From: Gemmatimonadota bacterium
Lineage (GTDB): Bacteria > Gemmatimonadota > Gemmatimonadetes > Longimicrobiales > Gaopeijiaceae
Length of the DNA: 36,590 nt
Assembly (NCBI GenBank): GCA_012267505.1
Contig: JAAXGI010000066.1
Location: forward strand, 1 to 36,590
Reading direction: 5' to 3'
Under the pieces are notes generated by a model. That model saw only the letters and a program-made list of their open reading frames with translations, was not told where the DNA came from and searched no databases. Of the stretch, positions 23,014 to 35,836 are shown one piece after another. How positions within the stretch are numbered: the stretch's first letter is position 1; every line of letters begins with the position of its first letter. The position numbers and the translations under genes are program-made.

Positions 23014-23649
23014 TCAGATGAGGTATACGATCGTGAATAGCACGATCCATACGAGGTCAACGAAGTGCCAGTACAGGCCGACGATCTCGACTCCGCCCAG
23101 ATTCTGCGGGGTGTATGCACCTTTTCGCGCCTGCATCAGGACGAATATGAGCGCGAGCACGCCGAGCGTCACGTGCGTGCCGTGAAAGCCGGTCATGACA
23201 TAGAAGGTCGATCCGTAGAGCGGCCCGCCATGTGCAGCGTACAAATCGGCAGACGGCACGAACCCCTCGTGCGCGGCAAGCTGGATGTACTCGTAGATCT
23301 GCACGCCGACGAAGGCCGACCCAAGTACGATCGTGACCAATAGCCAGAGCTGAAGTCCCTTCTGGTCCCCGTTCTGGAGGGCCGCAAACGCCTTCACCAT
23401 GGACACCGAAGAACAGATGAGGACAAAGGTGTTGATCGCCGTGAGCGGGACGTTCAACACCTCGCCCGGCGACGCGAAGTGCTCCGGATTCGCGAACCGC
23501 AGAATGACGTACGCCCCGATGAGTGACGTGAAGAACATCACCTCCGAGAGGAGGAAGATCCACATCCCGAGCTTCTTCGTGTAGACGCCCTCCAGAGCGA
23601 TCTCCGGCTGGCGCCCGGGGAGACCGACCGCTGCTGCATGACTCTCCAT
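23014..23649 (-). CDS. ctaE: Cytochrome c oxidase subunit III
   Basis: This 211-residue protein has five membrane segments, the short bacterial form of COX III. Family blocks are KLGMWIFLLSEVMFFTSLI near the N-terminus, FYVMTGFHGTHVTLGVLAL, and YWHFVDLVWIVLFTIVYL at the end. Subunit III helps proton uptake and stability of the aa3 oxidase. It begins 11 nt after the coxI stop, with GGAG upstream. Confidence 0.95.
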   Translation of the reverse strand: MESHAAAVGLPGRQPEIALEGVYTKKLGMWIFLLSEVMFFTSLIGAYVILRFANPEHFASPGEVLNVPLTAINTFVLICSSVSMVKAFAALQNGDQKGLQLWLLVTIVLGSAFVGVQIYEYIQLAAHEGFVPSADLYAAHGGPLYGSTFYVMTGFHGTHVTLGVLALIFVLMQARKGAYTPQNLGGVEIVGLYWHFVDLVWIVLFTIVYLI

Positions 23650-23660
23650 CTGCCTGCTCC

Positions 23661-25442
23661 CTAGCGTGTTGCGGGTTCGACTGAGCGTTCGGCGGGCTCC
23701 GCTTCCTCATCGGGCTCCGTCTGGAGGATGTAGTCCTCCTCGGCGCCCGGCAGGCTGTACTCGTACGGTCCGCGGTAGACAACCGGCATGTGCTGGAAGT
23801 TCCCGTGCGGCGGCGGCGACGGGACCGCCCACTCGAGCGAGTTCGCCTTCCACGGGTTCGGGCCCACCTTCTCGCTACGGAGCGAGAGAATGAAATTCAG
23901 TGCGAAGATCACCTGCACCACGACCAGCGCAAACAGCGCGATCGAGATGAAGCGGTTGAGCGGGAGCATGTCGGCGAAGATTTCATACTGGTACGGATCG
24001 TACAGCCGCCGCATCATTCCCTGCACGCCGAGCGAGTGCATCGGGAAGAAGACGACGTTGTAGAGAATGAAGGTCAGCACGAAGTGCACCTTCCCCCAAA
24101 ACTCGTTCATGATCCGCCCGAAAAACTTGGGATACCAGAACGTTATGCCGGCAAAAATCGCCAGCAAGCTTCCGCCGAAGAGTACGTAGTGAATATGTGC
24201 TACGATGAAGTAGGTGTCGTGGATCTGGATGTCGACCGGCGTCGCCGCCATGAACACCCCCGACAGTCCTCCGATGATAAAGAGGGAGACGAAACCGGCA
24301 CCGTGCAGGAAGGGGGTGTGGAGATGGATATTCCCCTTCCACATCGTCCCTAGCCAGTTGAACACCTTGATGGCGGAGGGCACCGCGATGAGCATCGTCG
24401 TGACCATGAAGGTCGTTCCGAGCATCGGGTTCATCCCGCTCATGAACATGTGGTGCCCCCAGACGATCCACCCGAGGAACGCGATCCCGCAGATGGCGAG
24501 CACCATGGAGTGGTAGCCGAACACGGGCTTGCGCGAACCGTTGGAAACCACCTCCGAGGCGATCCCCATGGCCGGCACGATCAGGATGTAGACCTCCGGA
24601 TGGCCGAAGTACCAGAAGAGGTGCTGCCAGAGCAGTGGCTCTCCCCCCACTTCCGGGCGGAAGAACGCGGTGCCGATCGTCTGGTCGAAGAGGAGCATGA
24701 TCAGGGCCCCGGCCAGGATCGGCATCGCCAGCAGGATCAGCCATGCCGTGATGAACAGCGCCCACGTCGCCAGCGGGAGCCGGAGCCAGGTGAGCCCCGG
24801 AGCCCGCATGTTGATTACCGTCGTGACGTAGTTCACCGAGCCTGCGATCGATGAAAAGCCGAGGATGAAGAGGGAGGCGAGCCAGAGCTGCTGTCCGAGA
24901 TAAACTCCCGTCCACTCCCCCGATGCAGAGAGCGGCGCGTAGGCGGTCCATCCGGCCCCGGAGGCACCCCCCTCGACAGCGAAGCTCGCGAGCATCAGGA
25001 CCCCGGCGGGAACGGCAAGCCAGAAGGAGGCCATGTTCAGCCTCGGGAAGGCCATGTCCGGCGCCCCGACCTGGAGGGGGATGAGGAGGTTCCCGAACAC
25101 CCCGACGAGCAGCGGCATGATCGCAAAGAAGATCATGAACGTCGCGTGCATCGTGACGAGCGCGTTGTAGAACTCGGGGAGGATGATGCCCCCCGGGGCC
25201 ATCGTGTCGGGCAGCACGTCGCCGCCGGGCATTGGCTGCCCGGGGAAGCCGAGCTGCCATCGGATCATCGCCGCGAGCAGCCCTCCCACGACGAGGAAGA
25301 AGAGGCTCAAGAACAGGAACTGCCGCGCGATGACCTTGTGGTCCGTCGAGAAGATGTACTTCCGGATGAACGGGAGTTCCTCGTGGTGTTCTCCCGCAAA
25401 CGGCAGCAGGTCAAAGTCCGTCGTCGGTGCGCTTACGCTCAT
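23661..25442 (-). CDS. ctaD: Cytochrome c oxidase subunit I (A1-type heme-copper oxidase)
   Basis: This 593-residue catalytic subunit has about twelve membrane helices. His99 (TMHATFMIFF) is a low-spin heme ligand. The HPEVY motif (281-285) contains the CuB His, the proton-channel Glu283 and the cross-linked Tyr285, which identifies an A1-type enzyme. WGHHMFMSG carries the other CuB His residues, and AHIHYVLFGG the heme ligands. The D-channel entry GAPDMAFPRLN is intact. It reduces oxygen to water and pumps protons. The first 20 residues and the acidic tail (EEDYILQTEPDEEAEPAE) are extensions. It sits between coxII and coxIII in one transcription unit. Confidence 0.97.
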   Translation of the reverse strand: MSVSAPTTDFDLLPFAGEHHEELPFIRKYIFSTDHKVIARQFLFLSLFFLVVGGLLAAMIRWQLGFPGQPMPGGDVLPDTMAPGGIILPEFYNALVTMHATFMIFFAIMPLLVGVFGNLLIPLQVGAPDMAFPRLNMASFWLAVPAGVLMLASFAVEGGASGAGWTAYAPLSASGEWTGVYLGQQLWLASLFILGFSSIAGSVNYVTTVINMRAPGLTWLRLPLATWALFITAWLILLAMPILAGALIMLLFDQTIGTAFFRPEVGGEPLLWQHLFWYFGHPEVYILIVPAMGIASEVVSNGSRKPVFGYHSMVLAICGIAFLGWIVWGHHMFMSGMNPMLGTTFMVTTMLIAVPSAIKVFNWLGTMWKGNIHLHTPFLHGAGFVSLFIIGGLSGVFMAATPVDIQIHDTYFIVAHIHYVLFGGSLLAIFAGITFWYPKFFGRIMNEFWGKVHFVLTFILYNVVFFPMHSLGVQGMMRRLYDPYQYEIFADMLPLNRFISIALFALVVVQVIFALNFILSLRSEKVGPNPWKANSLEWAVPSPPPHGNFQHMPVVYRGPYEYSLPGAEEDYILQTEPDEEAEPAERSVEPATR

Positions 25443-25490: not shown

Positions 25491-26255
25491 CTATTCCTCC
25501 GTCGCTCCCCCGGACGTCCGGGCGGTGTTCGCCGCGTCGGGCACCGAGGCCGTTGCACCCGGGAGGGGCGACTCACGCTCGAGCGCCTCGAGTGCGGCCA
25601 CCTGCTGCTCGCTCTCCCACTGCTCGAACTCGGGTTCCGTCTGCACGACGAGAAGCCCGTTCATCGTGTAGTGCCCGAGCCCGCAGAGCTCCGCGCACCC
25701 GATCGTGTACTCCCCCGGAGTGGTGGCCTCGAACCAGACCGGGATCGACATCCCGGGGACCGCATCCTGCTTGACGCGCATGTCGGGGAGGAAGAAGGAG
25801 TGGAGCACATCCTCCGCCCGCAAGTGCACCGTGACCGGCCGGTCCACGGGAACATTGATCTGGTTGAGGAGCGTGAAGTCGTCGGCAGTCTCAAGGACTC
25901 CGTCCGCTCCCGCGTAGGTGGCCTCCCACTCGAACTGCCGGCCGTTGAGGATGAGTTCGTAGCTCCCCGCCGGGAACCTTGACGGATCCTTGATGTCGGC
26001 CCAGAGGCCAGCGCTCATGAGGCCAATAGCGACCACGATCACCGCCGGCACAGCCGTCCAGATGATCTCGGCCTTCGTGCTACCCTCGATGTACTCGGCC
26101 TTGTGGCCCTCGCGCTTCCGGTACTTGATCAGGAAGTAGACGAGAAGCACCTCGGTCACGACGAAGATCACCCCGGTGATCACTAGGATGATGTAGTACA
26201 TCCGGTCGATATCCGGGCCGAACGTCGAATAGCTCGGCGGCAATAACCAATTCAT
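25491..26255 (-). CDS. ctaC: Cytochrome c oxidase subunit II with CuA site
   Basis: This 254-residue subunit has two membrane helices (about 20-43 and 64-86) and a periplasmic cupredoxin domain. The CuA ligands are complete: His152 in VLHSFFLPDMR, and Cys187, Cys191, His195 and Met198 in CAELCGLGHYTM. There is no C-terminal CxxCH, so this is not a caa3 fusion and a separate donor is needed. The start codon overlaps the stop of the upstream copper lipoprotein gene by 4 nt, which suggests that protein as a partner. The C-terminal 50 residues are acidic and Ala/Thr-rich. Confidence 0.96.
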   Translation of the reverse strand: MNWLLPPSYSTFGPDIDRMYYIILVITGVIFVVTEVLLVYFLIKYRKREGHKAEYIEGSTKAEIIWTAVPAVIVVAIGLMSAGLWADIKDPSRFPAGSYELILNGRQFEWEATYAGADGVLETADDFTLLNQINVPVDRPVTVHLRAEDVLHSFFLPDMRVKQDAVPGMSIPVWFEATTPGEYTIGCAELCGLGHYTMNGLLVVQTEPEFEQWESEQQVAALEALERESPLPGATASVPDAANTARTSGGATEE

Positions 26256-27109
26256 TCGGCTACTCCCCCGACGCGTGCCATCGTACGGTGATCGTGCGGG
26301 CCGTCGGTCGGCGTTCCGGCCGAGGACAGCATCGCGTCGGTGAAGTTGAAGGTGACCTCAGCCGTCTGGCCGGTCGTCACGGTGACCGTCTGCTCCAGCG
26401 TGCCGAGTCGGGCGTGCCACGCCTCGATCACGTACTCGCCCGGGGGAAGCTGGCTGAGATCGAAGGCGCCGCTGCCGCCCGAAACCGTGTGGTAGGGGTG
26501 CGTGACGACCCCGATGTAGCCGGCCATCCACCCGTGCACATCGCACTGGATGGGGATCATCACCTCGGGAGCCGCGAATTCCCGTTCCGTGTCCATGTTG
26601 ACGGGCTGGCTCACGTTGAACGGCCTGTTCGCCGTGGGCGAGGCGTTGATGTTGTGCAGCAGCCCGTCGGAGTTCCGGAAGGCGACACTCTGGCCGACCT
26701 GGACGCCGGCCACGAGCGGCCGGTACTGGCACCCCTGCTGGTCGATGACGACTGCCTGGCCAGGCACAGGGAAACTCATTCCCTCGAGGCCTTCCCTGAC
26801 GTAGACGAAGACATCGGCGAGGCCGCCTCCGCCCACGTCCACCCACGAGACCTCCGGGTCCCCCGTGTAGGTGGCGGCGCAGTCGGCCTCCGAGGTCATG
26901 TCGAGGACCTCGGGCGGGGGCGGGGTGCCCTCGAAGGTGACGGATCCGGTGATATTGCCCGCCGTGGCGACATCGAACGGCATCTCGGCGGGCGCGGCGT
27001 CGCCGCCACCACCTCCACCGGCTGCGTCGCCGCCACCGCCGCCGCAGCCCACGACAGCCAGCAAGACCGCCGGAGCCAGCACTCTGAGAACCCTCTCATA
27101 ACGAGCCAT
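26252..27109 (-). CDS. Type I copper (cupredoxin-like) lipoprotein
   Basis: This 285-residue product has a lipoprotein signal (LAPAVLLAVVGC, Cys22) followed by a Gly-rich linker. The core resembles plastocyanin-like domains, with a His-Cys-His-Met type I copper set: His152 (LLHNINAS), Cys189, His192 and Met195 in QCDVHGWM. Residues about 210-265 form a carboxypeptidase-regulatory-like beta domain (FDLSQLPPGEYVIEAWHA). The likely role is electron carrier to the CuA site of subunit II, since the genes overlap by 4 nt. ATG 27109 is chosen because GGAGG lies eight bases upstream; longer forms add a non-signal leader. Copper site read from sequence; partner inferred. Confidence 0.8.
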   Translation of the reverse strand: MARYERVLRVLAPAVLLAVVGCGGGGGDAAGGGGGGDAAPAEMPFDVATAGNITGSVTFEGTPPPPEVLDMTSEADCAATYTGDPEVSWVDVGGGGLADVFVYVREGLEGMSFPVPGQAVVIDQQGCQYRPLVAGVQVGQSVAFRNSDGLLHNINASPTANRPFNVSQPVNMDTEREFAAPEVMIPIQCDVHGWMAGYIGVVTHPYHTVSGGSGAFDLSQLPPGEYVIEAWHARLGTLEQTVTVTTGQTAEVTFNFTDAMLSSAGTPTDGPHDHRTMARVGGVAE

Positions 27110-27153
27110 GCTCATCCCCTCCCGGGTGAGTGGAGTGATCCGATTCCTACCCG

Positions 27154-28965
27154 CTAAGACTTCCTGGGCCCCTGATACCTGTGCCGGGCCGTGCCAATAA
27201 GCGCCACCGAGGCGGCAATCGTCAAGAATCCGGTGATCACCGCCCACCAGAAGCCCACATCAGTCTGCCCTGCCGCCCACCCGCCGACAGAGTTTCCTGC
27301 AGCCGCGAGGGCAAAGAGAAGCCAGAGGGCGCCGACGGCGAAACCGAAGTTCCGGGCCATCTGCGGCCGGGGCTCCGGGGGCAACACGATCCCTGCGGCG
27401 GCCGCCTGGACCTCACGGTCCCTCCTCTGCGCCCTCCGGACCACGAGGACCCCGAGCCCGCCCGTGAAGAGGAAGGCGACGAGCGGCGCCATGTAGGTCG
27501 ACGGCGGCGTCTCCTCCTCGAGCTGAATGAAGTACCACGAGCTGACCGAGCCGCGCGCGCCCTCCTCGGAATTGTCCCCGTCCCAGGCGAAGAACGCGAT
27601 CGGGATCGGGACCCCGATCTCGAACTGGAGCTCACTTGCCGGGTCCGCCGGAACCAGAGCCCGGCGAAGGAGGAGCTGCCAGCGCCCCGCTTCCCACGCC
27701 GCCTCCGATGTGAGCCCCTCGGCTCCCAACGGCTCGTAGATGTCGAGGCCCCGGGCCGCCGCCTTCACGGCCGTGCCCGGCACGCTCGACCACTGCCACT
27801 GGTAGACCGGGTTCGATCCGTCGCCCATCAGAAAATACGGCATGTCCATCCCCTCCGGAATCGTCGGCGGGAACTGGACGGTGATGCCGTCGGGCCGTGG
27901 CGCGGGCTCAAGATTCTCACCCTCTCTCGGCGCCATCGCGTCGAGGACCCAGCCCTGCCACTCGAGCCATCCCGGATCCGGGCTCCTCGAGCGATCGTGC
28001 CACGTAAGACGGAATGCCACCTCGCTCCCGTCGTGCAGTGCCTGCACCCAGACGCCGTCGACGGACGGGTCGAACCACCGGGGATTCTCAATGATCTGGC
28101 CGACAAGCGGGACGTAGAAGGACTCTGCCTGCCCCCAACGCTCGTCGGCGAGCTGTCCGGGAAGCTCGCCCGGGGCCACCTGTCCCACGACGATCACCTC
28201 TTCGGGCGTGGGCGTCTCCTCCGGGGAGAGACTCCGCACATAGTGCGCCAGGTTCCAGAGCTGGTCGTCCGTCATGAACCCGGCGTCGATGAGATCGGAG
28301 AAATTCGGCATCGGGGTGCCGTCAAGCCCCGTGCGGAGCCTCTGGTAGATATCCTCGACGGTGCTTCCCCCATTGAAGGTCCAGGCCTTCCAGAGGTCCG
28401 CCGAACGGATCGGGTTTCCTAAGTCGTCCTGTAGCGTCGAGGACGCCTCACCGTCGCCGCGACCCTCCGCCCCATGGCACTCGAAGCATTGGATTGAATC
28501 GTAGAAGAGACGGCCCTCGGCGATGCGCTCCTCCGAGGCCCCCGGCGCGCCGGGGAACTCGAGGGGCTCGGGCGCCCCGAGCGTCTCGAAGAACTGCGAG
28601 AAGGTCTTGATATAGGCGACGAGCGCCTCGCGGTCCGCGCCGGAAAGTTCCTCCTCCCATCCCGGCATCGTCGTTCCGGGCATCCCCTCGTTGATGATGC
28701 GCAGAATGTCCTCGTCGGTCGGGAGCTCCCCGGTCGCCGTGGACCGGATCTGGTAGAGCCCCGTCGTGAAGTCGCGCGGCCGCGGGATCATGTACTCGGC
28801 CGCCGGCCCCTGTCCGTCGCCCTCCGATCCGTGGCACTGCGAGCACCACTGTTCGTAGACCTCCCGGCCGCGCTCGACATCCTGCGCGCCGGCCGGGGAC
28901 GGATGGAGCGCCGAGAGACCGAGGAGCGCCGCGACAGCGGCGGGAAGGCGGGTCTGGGATCTCAT
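27154..28965 (-). CDS. Diheme cytochrome c fused to ethylbenzene-dehydrogenase-type heme b domain, membrane anchored
   Basis: This 603-residue exported protein has a signal peptide (to about AGAQ, residue 28), then two cytochrome c domains: CSQCH (41-45) with PGTTMPGW, and CFECH (160-164) with GTPMPNF. Residues about 255-510 resemble the EB_dh domain of ethylbenzene and nitrate or selenate reductase gamma subunits, which binds heme b (VDGVWVQALHDGSEVAFRLTW). Three hydrophobic segments lie in the last 95 residues. It is a likely periplasmic electron conduit. No molybdopterin catalytic subunit lies in the cluster, so it may link the neighbouring cytochromes and oxidases. Its start overlaps the upstream cytochrome stop by 4 nt. 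Confidence 0.82.
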   Translation of the reverse strand: MRSQTRLPAAVAALLGLSALHPSPAGAQDVERGREVYEQWCSQCHGSEGDGQGPAAEYMIPRPRDFTTGLYQIRSTATGELPTDEDILRIINEGMPGTTMPGWEEELSGADREALVAYIKTFSQFFETLGAPEPLEFPGAPGASEERIAEGRLFYDSIQCFECHGAEGRGDGEASSTLQDDLGNPIRSADLWKAWTFNGGSTVEDIYQRLRTGLDGTPMPNFSDLIDAGFMTDDQLWNLAHYVRSLSPEETPTPEEVIVVGQVAPGELPGQLADERWGQAESFYVPLVGQIIENPRWFDPSVDGVWVQALHDGSEVAFRLTWHDRSRSPDPGWLEWQGWVLDAMAPREGENLEPAPRPDGITVQFPPTIPEGMDMPYFLMGDGSNPVYQWQWSSVPGTAVKAAARGLDIYEPLGAEGLTSEAAWEAGRWQLLLRRALVPADPASELQFEIGVPIPIAFFAWDGDNSEEGARGSVSSWYFIQLEEETPPSTYMAPLVAFLFTGGLGVLVVRRAQRRDREVQAAAAGIVLPPEPRPQMARNFGFAVGALWLLFALAAAGNSVGGWAAGQTDVGFWWAVITGFLTIAASVALIGTARHRYQGPRKS

Positions 28966-29753
28966 TCCTCGATCCCCTCCTCTTCCCACGTCCGGGGCGC
29001 GATCCCCGCCTGGTCGTAGAGGAAGAGCGTGACCGCCCAGATCTCGTCGGCCGTTAGGAAATCCTCCCATACGGGCATCGCCGAATTCCAGGGCCCTCCC
29101 TCCCGCGGAAGTCCCGGACCGCCCTTGGCGATCCGCCAGAAAACAAAGCTCTCGGTGAGCTGCGCGATCGTGCTGCTGCCGCGCAGCTCGAGCGGTGTGG
29201 GGTTGAAGCCGGGGGCGTAGTGGCCGCCCGCATTCAGGTAGTCGCCGTGGCACGGCATGCAGTTCTGGTAGTAGAGCTCCTTGCCGAGCTCGAAGGCGGC
29301 CTCCTCGAGATCCGGCTCGCGCAGCGGGTTCTCGAGACCCTCGAGGACGATCGTCTCTCCCCGGAAGGTGATCTGCGTCGGGGGCGCCGGGTGAATCGAG
29401 CGGAGGCTGGCCGGTGCGGAGATCGTCGGACGGACGTTGTTGAAGGTGGCGAAGGCCACAAGAAGGGGCACGACGGCCATCATGCTCATGCGGACCACCT
29501 TCTTGTCCGGCTCGACAAGCGCCGCGTGGATCGGCTCCTTGAAGCGCGTCCAGCGCTCTTCGTTGTCACTGACCCAGACGAGCACGCCGACGAGGACGAT
29601 CGCCGTGTACTGCAGGACCACACTGGCCGGTACGGGCGCGCTCGTGATCCCGACCAGTCCCGGGAGATAGGCGATTCCCCACCGGATCAGGGCATACGAG
29701 ACGACGACCACGGCCAGCGACTGCCAGAACGGGTGCTTCGTGTATCGGCCCAT
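28962..29753 (-). CDS. Membrane-anchored monoheme cytochrome c
   Basis: This 263-residue protein has three predicted membrane segments in its first 105 residues, then a periplasmic class I cytochrome c domain with CMPCH (165-169) and a later Met in NSAMPVWEDFL. The segment before the heme (GLENPLREPDLEEAAFELGK) has the register usual for cytochromes in oxidase and reductase clusters. It should sit in the inner membrane and pass electrons between the neighbouring diheme proteins. It lies 12 nt after the upstream cytochrome gene and overlaps the next gene by 4 nt. Confidence 0.85.
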   Translation of the reverse strand: MGRYTKHPFWQSLAVVVVSYALIRWGIAYLPGLVGITSAPVPASVVLQYTAIVLVGVLVWVSDNEERWTRFKEPIHAALVEPDKKVVRMSMMAVVPLLVAFATFNNVRPTISAPASLRSIHPAPPTQITFRGETIVLEGLENPLREPDLEEAAFELGKELYYQNCMPCHGDYLNAGGHYAPGFNPTPLELRGSSTIAQLTESFVFWRIAKGGPGLPREGGPWNSAMPVWEDFLTADEIWAVTLFLYDQAGIAPRTWEEEGIEE

Positions 29754-29765
29754 CGGCGTTCCCTC

Positions 29766-30563
29766 TTATTCCAGGCCGCTCAGGTAGCTCACGACGGATT
29801 CGAGCTGGGTTGCCGTGAAGCGGTCACCGAACGTGGCCGGCATCGCGCCGAGCAGCTCCTCGTAGCCCTCCGAGACACCCGCTCCCGGCTCCAGGATCGA
29901 GATCCGGATCTCGTCGGCGGTCATCCGCGCGCCGAGGCCATCGAGCGGCGGGCCGAGCTCGATCCCCCCGCCCGCGAAGAGATGGCAGAGCGCGCACTCC
30001 TGGTTGACGATCTCCACCGGATCGCTCCCCGCCACGCCGGGAATGCCCGCCGCGGCCAGGCCGCCGCCCGCGTCGCCGGCCGCATCCTCGGTCGGGATGT
30101 CGGCGCCCGTGACCGTCACCTCGCCGCCCAGCGACTGGAGAAACGCGACCACGGCCCACACCTGCTGCGGGTTCATCGTGCGGTCCAGCGCTGGCATGAT
30201 CGGTGGGTAGTCGTCGACGAGGTGATCGACCGGGAGAGTGAGCGACTGATAGAGGTACTCCTTGCAGTCGAGCCCGGGGATCCGGTCCCCACACCGCTGG
30301 CCGATCGTCCCCTCCCCCTGGTAGTCCGTCACCAGGTTCGGGCCCCGCGCTCCCGCGCTCTCCGCGTGGCAGGCGATGCATCCGCCGGCCCCCTCGAAGA
30401 GCCCCTCACCGGCCGCCACGAGCTCCTCGGCGGTCACCTCCGCCCCGAAGGCGATCAGCTCCGGCACGTCCGACTGGACCTGGGGGATTGCGTTGGCCAC
30501 CAGGGTGAAGACCAGGATCGTCCCGAAGACCACCCCGCCGACCTTCAGATCTACGGCTCCCAT
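29766..30563 (-). CDS. Diheme cytochrome c, N-terminally anchored
   Basis: This 265-residue protein has one N-terminal membrane helix (VGGVVFGTILVFTLVANAIP) followed by two c-type domains, CIACH (62-66) and CALCH (190-194). Between them is an Asp/Gly/Ala linker (about 150-180). Two extra Cys (91 and 100) lie between the heme sites. It begins 19 nt after the bd-like subunit gene, so it is a good candidate electron donor to that protein. ATG 30563 has AGGAG nine bases upstream; a longer form would overlap the upstream gene. Confidence 0.87.
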   Translation of the reverse strand: MGAVDLKVGGVVFGTILVFTLVANAIPQVQSDVPELIAFGAEVTAEELVAAGEGLFEGAGGCIACHAESAGARGPNLVTDYQGEGTIGQRCGDRIPGLDCKEYLYQSLTLPVDHLVDDYPPIMPALDRTMNPQQVWAVVAFLQSLGGEVTVTGADIPTEDAAGDAGGGLAAAGIPGVAGSDPVEIVNQECALCHLFAGGGIELGPPLDGLGARMTADEIRISILEPGAGVSEGYEELLGAMPATFGDRFTATQLESVVSYLSGLE

Positions 30564-30582
30564 CCCGCGATTCTCCTCTCGA

Positions 30583-32448
30583 TCAGGTTCCGGGAAGCGG
30601 CTCGAGCCCGGGCTCAAGGCCCCCACCCCGGTCCGCTCCGCTCCCGCTCCGTCCGGGACTGCCCCCCGGGACCGGCTCCGCGGCGGCGGCGTCCGCCGCG
30701 GCGGGCACGAGCGCCGGCTTGGCGATCATCCCGCCGATCCAGAAGACGAAGGCGAGCATCAGGAAAAAGATCACGACGGATGCGCTGATGATCTGCGCCG
30801 CGTATCCGAGCGCGGGCGTCGCCGCGTACGCACTCGTGTCCTGGACAATCTCGTAGACGTGCCAGTGCTGCCGGATCCCGCTCCTGGCGAAGCCCATCAG
30901 ACCCATGAGCCAGGTGAAGGTGACGACCAGGACGAAGAGCGCGTACTGCGAGCGGGGCGGCATCCGGCCCCACCGGATATCGCCCCGCGACTCCGCGCCC
31001 CGGGCGATCAGGATGTCCAGGACGAGGACGGCGATGATCGTGAAGAGGACGGCCAGCACCTGATAGACCGAGAACCCGATGCGGACGATCGCCGGGACGA
31101 AGTAGCCGGCGATCCCGTAGAAGAGGACCACGAGCGCGCAGACAAGCAGGACGATCCCCTGCGAGAGCGTCCCCGTCCGTGCCCAGCTCACCGTCGGGTT
31201 CTTGTTCGCCCGGCGGTAGAGGAGGAAGGAGAGGAAGGTCGTCAGGATCATCAGGTTCACGGCGGTGTTCTTGGCGCTCATGACCCCGAGCGGTTGGAGG
31301 AAGGGGTGGAAGGTTCCTCCCATCGCCGCAAGCTCCGCCCGGTCGGCGATCATCGTGTGCGGCGTGGCCCAGACGATCACGCCCACCACGAGCACCAGGA
31401 GCATCCACTTCGTGTAGGGCGCGAACCGTTCGCCCCCCGGGATCCGCCCGAGCCCGATCCAGAGGTAGTAGTTGCCCGCGAGGAAGAGGACTCCGATGAG
31501 GAAGGCCTGGATGATCCAGAGCCAGCTCATGAAGCCGCCCATCATCGTGACGCCCATCTGCTGGTTGAACTCGTAGATCTCCCGGCCGAGGTAGTACCCC
31601 GCGAAGGGGAGGACGAGGAAGACCCCGATCGCGATCATGTTGCCCACGTACCCCATCCAGTCGTAGTGGGCGCGCTCCTCATCCGACTTGGCCTTGAGGA
31701 AGCGGTAGGCGGCGTAGGCCGCCACGATCGCGCCGCCGAAGACGGCGTTGGCGATCAGGCGGTGGACGTTGATCGGCATCCAGGTGGCGTTGGCGAACGC
31801 GCTCCAGAACTGGACGGTCGCGGGCGAGGTATCGGGCGTGAGGTCGCCGGGCGGGCTCATCATGAAGGTGAGCCAGGAGTTGGCGATGAGCAGCGCGATC
31901 GTTCCCCAGACGTTCAGGAGGAGGCCGAGGCCCCAGTGGCCGAGCTTGGCGCGACCCTTCTTCCACTGGTCCCACCCATAGTAGTACATGTAGAGGGTGG
32001 CCGATTCGGCGAAGAAGATCCCGGCATACATCCACATCGAGATCCGGAACACTTCGCTCAGATAGCTCCAGAGCGCCGGATAGAGTGTCGTCAGGAGGAA
32101 GACGAAGAGCCCGCCGAGGAGCGCCGTCGCGCTGTAGGCGACGAGGAGGAGGCGCGTGAACTCCTTGGCGAGACGGTCGTATCGGTCCTCCCCGCCGAAG
32201 AGCGCGATCGCCTCGGCGATCACCGCAAACATCGGCACGCCGAGCACGAAGGCCGCGAACATGAGGTGGACCTGGGCCACGATCCAGACGGCGGCCCGGC
32301 TGCCGATCACCGGGAAGTCGGCCCCGTAGTCCGGCGGCACGTACGCCTGCGCAACGAGCGTCTCGGCGAGGAGGAGGCCGGCGGCAAGGGCAACGACCGC
32401 GGAGAGGAGCCACCGGCCCGCACCCGCCCAGGACCTATCTTGGATCAT
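30583..32448 (-). CDS. Divergent cytochrome bd-superfamily subunit I (CydA-like)
   Basis: This 621-residue polytopic protein is longer than CydA of E. coli (about 520). By eye alignment, His61 (VAQVHLMFAAFVLG) matches the b595 ligand His19, Glu148 (FFAESATLYMYYYGWD) matches Glu107, and His229 (PINVHRLIAN) matches the b558 ligand His186. The position of Glu99 is Met140. The quinol-loop motif GRQPW is absent, so quinol oxidation is doubtful and a cytochrome c donor is more likely. No separate CydB follows; instead come three cytochrome c genes. The ATG overlaps the radical SAM gene stop by 4 nt. The Pro/Gly-rich C-terminal tail is unusual. Whether it reduces oxygen is not proved. Confidence 0.78.
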   Translation of the reverse strand: MIQDRSWAGAGRWLLSAVVALAAGLLLAETLVAQAYVPPDYGADFPVIGSRAAVWIVAQVHLMFAAFVLGVPMFAVIAEAIALFGGEDRYDRLAKEFTRLLLVAYSATALLGGLFVFLLTTLYPALWSYLSEVFRISMWMYAGIFFAESATLYMYYYGWDQWKKGRAKLGHWGLGLLLNVWGTIALLIANSWLTFMMSPPGDLTPDTSPATVQFWSAFANATWMPINVHRLIANAVFGGAIVAAYAAYRFLKAKSDEERAHYDWMGYVGNMIAIGVFLVLPFAGYYLGREIYEFNQQMGVTMMGGFMSWLWIIQAFLIGVLFLAGNYYLWIGLGRIPGGERFAPYTKWMLLVLVVGVIVWATPHTMIADRAELAAMGGTFHPFLQPLGVMSAKNTAVNLMILTTFLSFLLYRRANKNPTVSWARTGTLSQGIVLLVCALVVLFYGIAGYFVPAIVRIGFSVYQVLAVLFTIIAVLVLDILIARGAESRGDIRWGRMPPRSQYALFVLVVTFTWLMGLMGFARSGIRQHWHVYEIVQDTSAYAATPALGYAAQIISASVVIFFLMLAFVFWIGGMIAKPALVPAAADAAAAEPVPGGSPGRSGSGADRGGGLEPGLEPLPGT

Positions 32449-33815
32449 GCATCCCCTCCGCGACGGAGGAAGAACGGCAAACGCTTGGAGAAATCAGCGG
32501 GCATCTCGCGCCTCACCTCCGCCATCACTGCGAGATCGACGACCGGCCGGCCCCGCTCACGGGCGTAGTCCTCGATGCGGGACGTCACCACGCCCCGCAC
32601 GAAGCTCGGGATCCGGTCGATGCGCGCCTCCGCCTCAGCTGTCCAGGGGAGCGTCCGCTCACCCCGGGCTCCATAAGTGACCGCACGTCCGCTCCGGACC
32701 ACCGGTTCGACCCCGGACGGCTCGTACGCGCACGAGTCATCCGGCCCGAGCAGGTCGCCGGTGACGGCCTCCGCCCGGGCGCGGCATCCACCACAGATCT
32801 CCCGATACCCGCAACGCCCGCACTTCCCGCCGAGCTCCCCGTGCCGGAGGGAGTTGAGCACGGGGGAGCGCTCCCACACCTCCCGGAAGGACTGCTTTCG
32901 GAGGTCGCCGGCGATGGTCGGCGTGTAGGGGCACGGCGTGAGTTTCCCCTCGGGCGTGATCCGGCAGTACTGGACGCCGCAGGGACAGCGGGTCCGGTAG
33001 TTGAGGAGGGGCGAGTCGGGATCGGCCCCGTGCACATGCCGCATGATCTGGGGCTGGCACTTCGAGCGGATCATCATCCTTCCGCGGTACTCCGATTCGA
33101 GAACGGCCAGCTCGGCGAGCACCTCGTCGTTCTCCTCCGGCGAGAGCCCCTCCATCCGCCCGCCCCGCCCCGTCGGGACGAGGAAGTAGAGGTTGAAGGA
33201 GACGGCTCCGTGCTCGGCGCCCCAACGGACGAGTTCGCCGAGCTCCGCGCGGTTGCCGCGCGTCAGGCTCGTCTGCATCACGAAGTCCAGCTCGTGGTCC
33301 ACGAGACGGTCCACGGCCGCCAGCGTGTCGGAGAGCGCTCCGGTCCCGTGCCGGAACCGGTCGTGGTATCCGGGTCTGAGGGAGTCGATGCTAACGGCAA
33401 CGCCGGTGACGCCGGCGTCCTTGAGCGACGCGATCCGCGCGTCCGTCAGGCGGGTCCCGTTCGTTCCGACCACGACGGTGGCGCCGGCCGAGGCGGCGTG
33501 CCCGGCGATCTCCTCCAGGTCGTCCCGGAGGAGGGGCTCTCCGCCGGAGAGGATCAGCATCGGGTTCGGGTTCACCTCGAGGAGCCCGTCGAGGATCCGG
33601 AGGCACTCGGCGGTCGCGAGCTCGCCGGCGGCCGTCTGCCACGAGCCGGCCGAGATGTAGCAGTGCGCACACGCCAGGTTGCAGCGCTTCGTCAGGTTCC
33701 ACGCCACGACGTGGGGGATGAAGCCGCCGCGGCCCGCGCCGGGACCCCGGGGCTCGAGGAGCGCCATCCGCGCGTCGCCGGCACCGGCGGAAGCGCGGAT
33801 CCCGGCATCGATCAC
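32445..33815 (-). CDS. NirJ/AhbD-like radical SAM/SPASM protein with C-terminal PCP_red-like domain
   Basis: This 456-residue enzyme has the radical SAM cluster motif CNLACAHC (Cys45, 49, 52), LSGGEPLL, and the block YFLVPTGRGG common in heme-modifying NirJ/AhbD enzymes. The SPASM region (CRITPEGKLTPCPYTP, then CGRCGYREICGGCRARA) holds auxiliary cluster cysteines. Residues 391-440 form a PCP_red-like segment (WTAEAEARIDRIP onward), as in the protochlorophyllide reductase B subunit. Such a fusion points to a tetrapyrrole substrate, possibly a heme for the bd-like protein whose gene overlaps it by 4 nt. The start GTG overlaps the upstream UspA gene by 4 nt. Family is firm; substrate is inferred. 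Confidence 0.85.
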   Translation of the reverse strand: MIDAGIRASAGAGDARMALLEPRGPGAGRGGFIPHVVAWNLTKRCNLACAHCYISAGSWQTAAGELATAECLRILDGLLEVNPNPMLILSGGEPLLRDDLEEIAGHAASAGATVVVGTNGTRLTDARIASLKDAGVTGVAVSIDSLRPGYHDRFRHGTGALSDTLAAVDRLVDHELDFVMQTSLTRGNRAELGELVRWGAEHGAVSFNLYFLVPTGRGGRMEGLSPEENDEVLAELAVLESEYRGRMMIRSKCQPQIMRHVHGADPDSPLLNYRTRCPCGVQYCRITPEGKLTPCPYTPTIAGDLRKQSFREVWERSPVLNSLRHGELGGKCGRCGYREICGGCRARAEAVTGDLLGPDDSCAYEPSGVEPVVRSGRAVTYGARGERTLPWTAEAEARIDRIPSFVRGVVTSRIEDYARERGRPVVDLAVMAEVRREMPADFSKRLPFFLRRGGDA

Positions 33816-35836
33816 GCCTCGCCACCCCCTCCGTTGCCCATGAATTGCTCGACCGCCGCCTTCGCGTCCTCCGGGGAGGTCGTCTTCAGGTCAACAGGGC
33901 ACTTGGCGGCCTGCTCCTCGACATCGCGGATCGGGCAGCGCGTGACCCCCTGCGCCTTCGCCTCCTCGATGAACTTCCGCATCTCCGGGCTCACGGCGTC
34001 CACCCCCTCCGCCGCGGCCCTGATCTGCTTCGTCTGGAGTTCCTTGAACATGACGAGCATCGTATCGATGTCGAAGGTGTCGGCCGCGATCATCGCCTCC
34101 CTGTTCTCGTCCATCACCGCCGTCGTTACCCGCCAGACGGCGTGCTCCCTGGCGAACTTCTCGACCGTGTTGCGCGCAAGCGGCCGGGCGACCAGGGGCA
34201 CCGCCGCGAGACGTTCGAAGGCCTCATGCGTCCAGACGACCGGATCGGAGAGCGTCCGCTCCCGGACCTGGGCGTGACCGGTATACGGACACTTCGTCTC
34301 GATCGTCGCAGCCTCGGGCACGGGATCGGCGTCGTGGCCCTCGACGACCGTCCGCTTCATCGCGTCCTCGGCCTTGACCTCCGCGAGCGCCAGCTCCTCG
34401 GCGGTTCCGATCCCCATGATCAGCTGCATGTGCGTGGGAAGGAGCTTCTGGATCGCCTCGTCGAGCCGGTCTCCGGTCACGGTCGGGAGAACCGGGGGCG
34501 GGGCGCCGTTCCCGGAGGCAGCCGGCGCCGGGCCGTAGTGCTCCATCACGAACTCCTCGACGGCCTTTCTCGCGATCCCGAGCGCGAAGGGCGGCACCCT
34601 GAGAATCCGGACCTCGGCGTCGGGAGCCCACTCGAGCCCCTTCTCCCCATCCTCCTCGATCCATGGGATGTCGTCGGGGCGCACCTCGGTCGTCCCGACC
34701 AAGAGCACGTTCGTCGGCGAGAGGCGGCAGAGGTTGTCCGCCTGGGAGCCCATATCCGTCCCCTCGATCCGGTGCCCGCCGTGCCGGGCGAGGACGAGAA
34801 GGGAGGGATCGACCTCCTCGATCCACTGGAGAATGCACTGGAAGGGCTTGCCGATGAGGATCTGCGTCTCCATCTCGACGTCCGGGAAGCCGGCGTGCAT
34901 GATCTCCGCCCGCTTGAGGTTCGCCTGGCAGAGCTTGAGCAGACCCTTGTCGATGATGTTGTTGTGGAGCTCCTCCTGCTCCTCGAACTTGAACACCTTG
35001 GCGGCCTGAGCCGAGAGCACGTCCTTGATGTTTCCGAAGACGACGTGGTGGTACTCGACGTCGAAGGCCGAGCAGACGTAGAGCTTCGCCCTGTACTCGC
35101 GGGCCATCTCGAGGGCGACGCGCATCGCCTTGTAGGAATAGGACGACCCGTCGATGCAGACCATCCAGCGTCCCTCGGCGAGAGGACGGTCGTTCCTGAT
35201 CACGAGGGCGTCTTTCTCCACCTGCCGGATCACGCGTGAGGCTACGCCGCCGAGCTGCGAGAAGGGTTGCTGGCCGATCCCGTGCGCGCCGATCACCATC
35301 AGGTCGTAGCTCCGGCCGCTCTCCCCGGCCAGCTTCTCCTCCTGGTCCTCGTCCTCTGCGACGAGCCTTCCGTCCTCGCCCAGGATCACATCGCCACGAC
35401 CGCTCTCCCCCCCGTCGTACTTCCCCGCGATGTTCGGATCGAACCCGATGAGGCTTGGAAGGCGGCCAGCGCCGCGGTTCGCCTCGCGGATGATCTCCTC
35501 GTAGTTGATCCCCTCGAGGAGCTGGCGGGTGAGCGGCACGTCCGCTTCCGCGCAGAGTTCCTCGGTGCGGTCAAGGAAGGAGTCGGAGATGAGCTGGAGC
35601 CCCTTCTCGATCAGCTTGTCGTGGATCTTGCGCTGGCGCCTGATCTCGGCATCGGTCTGGAACTGGGCCGGAAGCCCGGTCTCAAGCTGCCGGAAGCGGA
35701 CGTCGTGGAGCCGGGCCGCATACACGTGGTTGCCCGTAATGCGCCCGCCGGATCGCCGGCAGACCTCGATCGCCCTCTCGACCGCCCAGCAGGAATGTTC
35801 CGAATTGTCAACCGGGACAAGGATTTCTCGGTACAT
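33812..35836 (-). CDS. Double UspA-domain protein with two PCP_red-like segments
   Basis: This 674-residue product starts YREILVPVDNSEHS, a classic UspA N-terminus. Domain 1 spans about 1-215, with the nucleotide loop GAHGIGQQPFSQLGG and an acidic insertion. Domain 2 spans about 223-382, with RHGGHRIEGTDMG. Two PCP_red-like segments follow: W403 to about 435 and W535 to about 580, both fitting W-x3-A-x2-R-[IL]-x2-[VI]-P-x10-[VI]-E. Three Cys-Pro pairs (516, 634, 646) resemble heme-regulatory motifs. It is the first gene of the operon, and its stop overlaps the radical SAM start. A chaperone or sensor for heme handling is my inference. The second of two adjacent ATGs is chosen, with GAGG five bases upstream. 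Confidence 0.83.
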   Translation of the reverse strand: MYREILVPVDNSEHSCWAVERAIEVCRRSGGRITGNHVYAARLHDVRFRQLETGLPAQFQTDAEIRRQRKIHDKLIEKGLQLISDSFLDRTEELCAEADVPLTRQLLEGINYEEIIREANRGAGRLPSLIGFDPNIAGKYDGGESGRGDVILGEDGRLVAEDEDQEEKLAGESGRSYDLMVIGAHGIGQQPFSQLGGVASRVIRQVEKDALVIRNDRPLAEGRWMVCIDGSSYSYKAMRVALEMAREYRAKLYVCSAFDVEYHHVVFGNIKDVLSAQAAKVFKFEEQEELHNNIIDKGLLKLCQANLKRAEIMHAGFPDVEMETQILIGKPFQCILQWIEEVDPSLLVLARHGGHRIEGTDMGSQADNLCRLSPTNVLLVGTTEVRPDDIPWIEEDGEKGLEWAPDAEVRILRVPPFALGIARKAVEEFVMEHYGPAPAASGNGAPPPVLPTVTGDRLDEAIQKLLPTHMQLIMGIGTAEELALAEVKAEDAMKRTVVEGHDADPVPEAATIETKCPYTGHAQVRERTLSDPVVWTHEAFERLAAVPLVARPLARNTVEKFAREHAVWRVTTAVMDENREAMIAADTFDIDTMLVMFKELQTKQIRAAAEGVDAVSPEMRKFIEEAKAQGVTRCPIRDVEEQAAKCPVDLKTTSPEDAKAAVEQFMGNGGGGEA

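Follow-up and report, generated by a model that had tools for sequence, protein, structure and literature searches.

The stretch of DNA analysed here, referred to as the window, comprises the 36,590 nucleotides of contig JAAXGI010000066.1 from the Gemmatimonadota bacterium assembly GCA_012267505.1 (family Gaopeijiaceae), and two adjacent genes on its reverse strand encode proteins that end in PCP_red (PF08369), a small domain whose known home is BchB of the dark-operative protochlorophyllide reductase (DPOR). The first of these proteins, UspPCP, joins a tandem universal stress protein (Usp) to two copies of the domain, and the second, rSAM_PCP, joins a radical SAM/SPASM core to a single copy. 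The start of rSAM_PCP overlaps the stop of UspPCP (GTGA), and the stop of rSAM_PCP is in turn overlapped (ATGA) by the start of a gene for a bd-like oxidase subunit. Beyond it lie cytochromes c, one of which is of the alternative NxrC or ethylbenzene dehydrogenase (EB_dh) type, a cupredoxin-like gene and the cytochrome c oxidase (COX) genes COX2-1-3 (Table 1).

The pattern W-x3-A-x2-R-[IL]-x2-[VI]-P-x10-[VI]-E-x-[FY] occurs exactly three times in a six-frame translation of the window, at residues 403 and 535 of UspPCP and 391 of rSAM_PCP, just where an earlier note on this DNA had placed it, and in none of 2000 residue-shuffled sets. With PF08369, for which the Pfam cut-off is 32.5 bits, residues 391–435 of rSAM_PCP match profile positions 1–45 at 52.5 bits (57.8 bits in the six-frame search) and residues 535–578 of UspPCP match positions 1–44 at 39.4–40.5 bits (40.5 bits as an isolated segment), while the UspPCP copy at 403 matches positions 1–29 only and remains below the cut-off at 21.5–23 bits. 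The last score, taken alone, is what could be cited for a chance or low-complexity likeness to PCP_red. That explanation has a negligible probability and is already refuted by the scores of the other copies, by the shuffled sets, and by the five domain classes (BchB, rSAM, Usp1, Usp2 and Zn, the last from a protein described below), each of which forms its own clade. In an independent profile of 51 rSAM_PCP orthologues, moreover, the tail matches solved BchB/ChlB chains, and the core matches SkfB, PqqE and others.

The earlier note described all three segments as gapless, which holds for a core of ~31 residues but not for helix 3 of UspPCP copy 1, which in the window is displaced by some 15 inserted residues. 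The linker that separates helix 2 from the helix bearing VTxxxLDxAI is 4 to 101 residues long in the 95 loci compared. In the orthologues with four-residue linkers (L114, L090 and L122) copy 1 covers profile positions 1–44, and taken as an isolated segment it reaches 40.0 bits in L114 and 41.2 bits in L090, above the cut-off; because of these short-linker orthologues, copy 1 is taken as a complete domain in origin, and the idea that it is a half domain was ruled out. The profile search thus upholds two of the three segments directly, and the third, at ~22 bits in the window yet 40–41 bits in orthologues, through its relatives. In the AlphaFold2 model, copy 1 has predicted helices at residues 405–411, 416–434 and 455–465, with low to moderate confidence. 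Judged from their predicted helices, all three segments would adopt the compact three-helix fold of 2kru/2l09, predicted confidently for rSAM_PCP and with low to moderate confidence for both UspPCP copies. Both outcomes that the earlier note had named as fatal to its claim, background scores for all three segments and differing predicted folds, were looked for, and neither occurs.

A further contig of this genome, C66 (locus L052), encodes a fourth copy; this contig carries genes for a ferredoxin, an Mrp-type P-loop NTPase, ZnPCP, a membrane protein (mem130) and an ABC ATPase, and ends within the start of an ABC permease. The remainder of such a permease stands at the end of the window, and from this synteny we infer that C66 lies directly upstream. 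ZnPCP is a zinc-ribbon-like protein of 150 aa; its two CxxC pairs are invariant in 26 orthologues, and its C-terminal part is a PCP_red domain (51.2 bits, above the cut-off). Since this additional gene would sit just upstream, the locus appears to hold four PCP_red domains spread over three genes, a unit larger than the two genes of the earlier note. The PF08369 search of the window genome, which is 92% complete, gave no PCP_red gene above the cut-off beyond those of this cassette and no BchB-like match, and none of the PCP_red genes has nitrogenase-like neighbours of the BchN/BchB kind; the proposal of a true PCP_red outside photosynthesis is therefore borne out. A weak fifth match in the genome, at 17.7 bits on contig C208, overlaps a gene for a sigma-54 regulator and was taken as noise.

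The cassette is well conserved. Names were listed for 80 of 130 loci; nearly all of these 80 are labelled Gemmatimonadota, and the others among them are probably mislabelled bins. The order ferredoxin–Mrp–ZnPCP–UspPCP–rSAM_PCP is near-invariant (loci L035–L132), and among the named loci listed, the bd-like gene comes next after rSAM_PCP in all 69 that have a recognised further gene, although in one of them rSAM_PCP is in two pieces. UspPCP shares 70–79% identity with 28 orthologues. In the window genome and 58 relatives PCP_red matches are largely all or none, and in a sample of the phylum the domain was found in 93 of the 249 genomes drawn, including one family with mostly BchB-like matches. 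UspPCP and the bd-like protein are both present in 22 of the 58 relatives and both missing from 34; of the two discordant genomes, G032 has only the bd-like protein (a low-scoring paralogue) and G053 only UspPCP (in a fragmentary state). The best reading of this pattern is that the whole operon is acquired or lost as a unit. The earlier note's view of a shared module is supported in that the domain recurs in genes coupled to haem proteins. The phototrophic relative G018 has both BchB and the complete cassette, so two uses of PCP_red coexist in one genome.

The haem protein that the earlier note mentions beside these genes is a bd-like oxidase, whose similarity to canonical CydA is limited to the N-terminal ~250 residues rather than extending over its full length. 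In gene content, as judged from the published description, the downstream genes resemble the bd-like_3/alternative NxrC cluster that PMC6606698 describes in Nitrospira, Nitrospina and anammox bacteria, where a bd-like protein is accompanied by three cytochromes c, one of them with a haem domain of the type II gamma-like kind; here, unlike there, COX2-1-3 are joined to the set and the PCP_red cassette stands in front. In Nitrospira, anammox and Mn-oxidising bacteria, bd-like oxidases have been put forward as key enzymes of respiration, and their role and cofactors are described as unsettled (PMC6606698, PMC9040806). Radical SAM or universal stress genes are not mentioned in the main text of PMC6606698 or of the Manganitrophus paper (PMC9040806), nor in the Gemmatimonadota genome surveys searched.

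Table 1. Features of the PCP_red cassette and the adjoining oxidase cluster, with positions in the window.
Feature	Position	Strand	Evidence or remark
UspPCP, 674 aa	33812..35836	-	PF00582 103.8 bits; PF08369 50.2 bits
UspPCP PCP_red copy 1, helices 1-2, residues 403-434	34535..34630	-	PF08369 positions 1-29, 21.5 bits
UspPCP copy 1 displaced third helix, residues 453-466, VTGDRLDEAIQKLL	34439..34480	-	Contiguous with helices 1-2 in L090, L114, L122; modelled helix 455-465
UspPCP PCP_red copy 2, residues 535-578	34103..34234	-	PF08369 positions 1-44; three modelled helices
UspPCP invariant Cys-Pro 516-517	34286..34291	-	All 29 orthologues aligned
UspPCP invariant Cys-Pro 634-635	33932..33937	-	All 29 orthologues aligned
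UspPCP invariant Cys-Pro 646-647	33896..33901	-	All 29 orthologues aligned
rSAM_PCP, NirJ/AhbD-like, 456 aa	32445..33815	-	PF04055, PF13186, PF08369 above cut-offs
rSAM_PCP PCP_red, residues 391-435	32511..32645	-	57.8 bits, six-frame; three confident modelled helices
bd-like oxidase subunit	30583..32448	-	PF01654 79.5 bits; resembles CydA structures over its N-terminal half
Cytochrome c (cytc_a), ORF start uncertain	29766..30626	-	PF00034 55.6 bits
Cytochrome c (cytc_b)	28962..29753	-	PF13442 30.6 bits
Di-cytochrome c with EB_dh gamma-like haem domain, alternative NxrC-like, ORF start uncertain	27154..29253	-	PF09459 53.5 bits; TIGR03477 83.5 bits, below cut-off
Cupredoxin-like/carboxypeptidase-regulatory-like protein	26252..27247	-	PF13620 32.2 bits, at cut-off; synteny
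COX2	25491..26255	-	TIGR02866 (CoxB) above cut-off
COX1	23661..25442	-	PF00115 486.6 bits
COX3	23014..23649	-	PF00510 88.4 bits
ABC permease, 3' part, cut by contig end	36187..36588	-	Start of an ABC permease ends C66

The likeness of rSAM_PCP to NirJ and AhbD noticed earlier stands as a relationship and fails as a membership. NirJ2 (262 bits) and AhbD (259 bits) are its closest NCBIfam families, matching it over the full core, which has the SPASM cysteines, but the cut-offs are 500 bits for both, and NirJ gives 175 bits with a cut-off of 515. The protein also differs from these enzymes in its extra PCP_red tail, and its genome has no match at E 0.01 to the siroheme decarboxylase family PF17805. 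With scores at about half of the cut-offs and no siroheme decarboxylase match, identification as AhbD or NirJ was ruled out. A ferrochelatase is present and siroheme decarboxylase was not found; thus, rSAM_PCP is unlikely to be a general haem synthase. No paralogue was detected in the window genome at E 1e-8.

We propose that the five proteins form a maturation cassette for the downstream oxidase cluster, a proposal that we consider the likeliest reading, though about evenly balanced between right and wrong. It is based on domain identities, kept gene order, co-occurrence with the bd-like oxidase and overlapping reading frames, all computed directly. Also in its favour are the closeness of rSAM_PCP to NirJ2 and AhbD, the occurrence of PCP_red in BchB and, weakly, in a BchZ-like protein, and the three invariant Cys-Pro motifs of UspPCP. 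The ferredoxin, Mrp-type NTPase, ZnPCP, UspPCP and rSAM_PCP would work together, and PCP_red would be a docking or substrate-presenting module by which they gather on one substrate; the ferredoxin would give electrons, the NTPase would give iron-sulphur (Fe-S) clusters or energy, and the NirJ/AhbD-like rSAM_PCP would be the catalyst that alters the substrate. That substrate may be a tetrapyrrole, the change probably being one to a haem side chain, destined for the bd-like or a neighbouring haem protein.

Several points weigh against this proposal. The co-occurrence of UspPCP and the bd-like protein (p = 9e-14) is calculated ignoring shared descent, and the bd-like protein, the EB_dh-type cytochrome and COX travel as one set, so that no client is singled out among them. 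Tetrapyrrole binding by PCP_red is plausible but inferred. Across the PCP_red classes, no position keeps a His, Cys or Met throughout; thus, the domain offers no evident axial ligand, and simple docking would account for it equally well. The nearest solved structures of the rSAM_PCP core are the peptide-modifying PqqE and SkfB, and SPASM radical SAM enzymes often act on peptides. The same ligand and structure results favour a scheme to which we would assign about a third of the weight, in which PCP_red serves protein-protein docking only and the task of the cassette is to build an Fe-S or copper centre or to modify a residue in a protein of the oxidase cluster, with no tetrapyrrole involved. 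Mrp-type NTPases and ferredoxins are Fe-S proteins by family, and a CuA-type COX2 is encoded within the same operon, as such a scheme would have it; it fits less well with the closest curated families of rSAM_PCP, NirJ2 and AhbD, which act on tetrapyrroles, or with the known home of PCP_red in a tetrapyrrole reductase.

A further thought raised by UspPCP is that the PCP_red genes form a unit for regulation or stress sensing, which tunes the expression or activity of the oxidase cluster. The N-terminal part of UspPCP consists of two Usp folds with partial nucleotide-binding motifs, as in the tandem proteins UspE, TTHA0350 and Rv2623; unlike them, it has a C-terminal extension of ~290 residues with the two PCP_red copies and three invariant Cys-Pro dipeptides, and such dipeptides are a feature of haem regulatory motifs, which could make the unit haem-responsive. 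We consider this explanation unlikely, since no DNA-binding domain was found among the Pfam matches, and a radical SAM enzyme, an Mrp NTPase, a ferredoxin and the recurrence of the same domain in three genes are left unexplained by it. In a search of plasmids, UspPCP was not found, and the matches were plain Usp proteins of haloarchaea only.

The maturation cassette has its closest parallel in DPOR, where the C-terminal PCP_red of BchB/ChlB (2kru, 2xdq, 2ynm) is the same domain by sequence and by its predicted three-helix fold, and where a P-loop NTPase is likewise among the partners. DPOR chemistry is ferredoxin-driven, and the cassette includes a ferredoxin. The cassette differs in that it has no nitrogenase-like subunits and carries the domain on Usp, radical SAM and zinc-ribbon-like proteins, in genomes without BchB. 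We found no description of PCP_red outside DPOR in the open literature searched, and none of the PCP_red cassette. A module of a chlorophyll enzyme built four times into three neighbouring genes of non-photosynthetic bacteria, in each case beside an unusual oxidase, suggests an undescribed helper kit that gives the adjoining oxidase a cofactor, possibly a modified haem. More specifically, and with slightly more than a third of our confidence, non-phototrophic Gemmatimonadota could possess an undescribed pathway, organised around the four PCP_red domains, whose product is a modified haem for the non-canonical bd-like oxidase. PCP_red would in that case serve to handle tetrapyrroles in general, in DPOR as well, and would not be specific to chlorophyll. 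A set of genes linked to a single bd-like oxidase offers a testable handle on oxidase assembly, and with PCP_red set apart from photosynthesis, its role in DPOR would become amenable to study in small soluble proteins. A BchZ-like protein of relative G028 (L030:1471-2919, reverse strand; BchZ assigned by eye) has a C-terminal PCP_red-like match of 28.8 bits, below the cut-off; given this weak match, PCP_red may be common to both nitrogenase-like chlorophyll reductases.

The cluster was also considered as a replacement for complex III and rejected, because lack of bc1 cytochrome b shows no association with the bd-like gene (13/10/16/19, p 0.59). In the window genome bc1 cytochrome b (PF00033) was not found and one NrfD-type protein is encoded on contig C288; NrfD-type proteins, which mark alternative complex III among other systems, occur in 58 of 59 genomes. 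In relative G007 the ABC permease and UspPCP are separated by a second, divergent bd-like/cytochrome c/EB_dh cluster, which comes with genes for a two-component system and a multi-cupredoxin protein (L047:7231-19001, L048:1-3726), and G032, a 60% complete genome with no UspPCP match, has a divergent bd-like gene similar to that of G007. The CxxC motif of the Mrp-type NTPase is present in L047:3612-4532 and missing from L039:2835-3944; because of the latter copy, Fe-S carriage by Mrp is perhaps not general. The ABC transporter (ATPase and ABC-2 permease) and the membrane protein of ~130 aa are optional members of the cassette, present at some loci only (L052:355-4687 on contig C66, and comparable loci).

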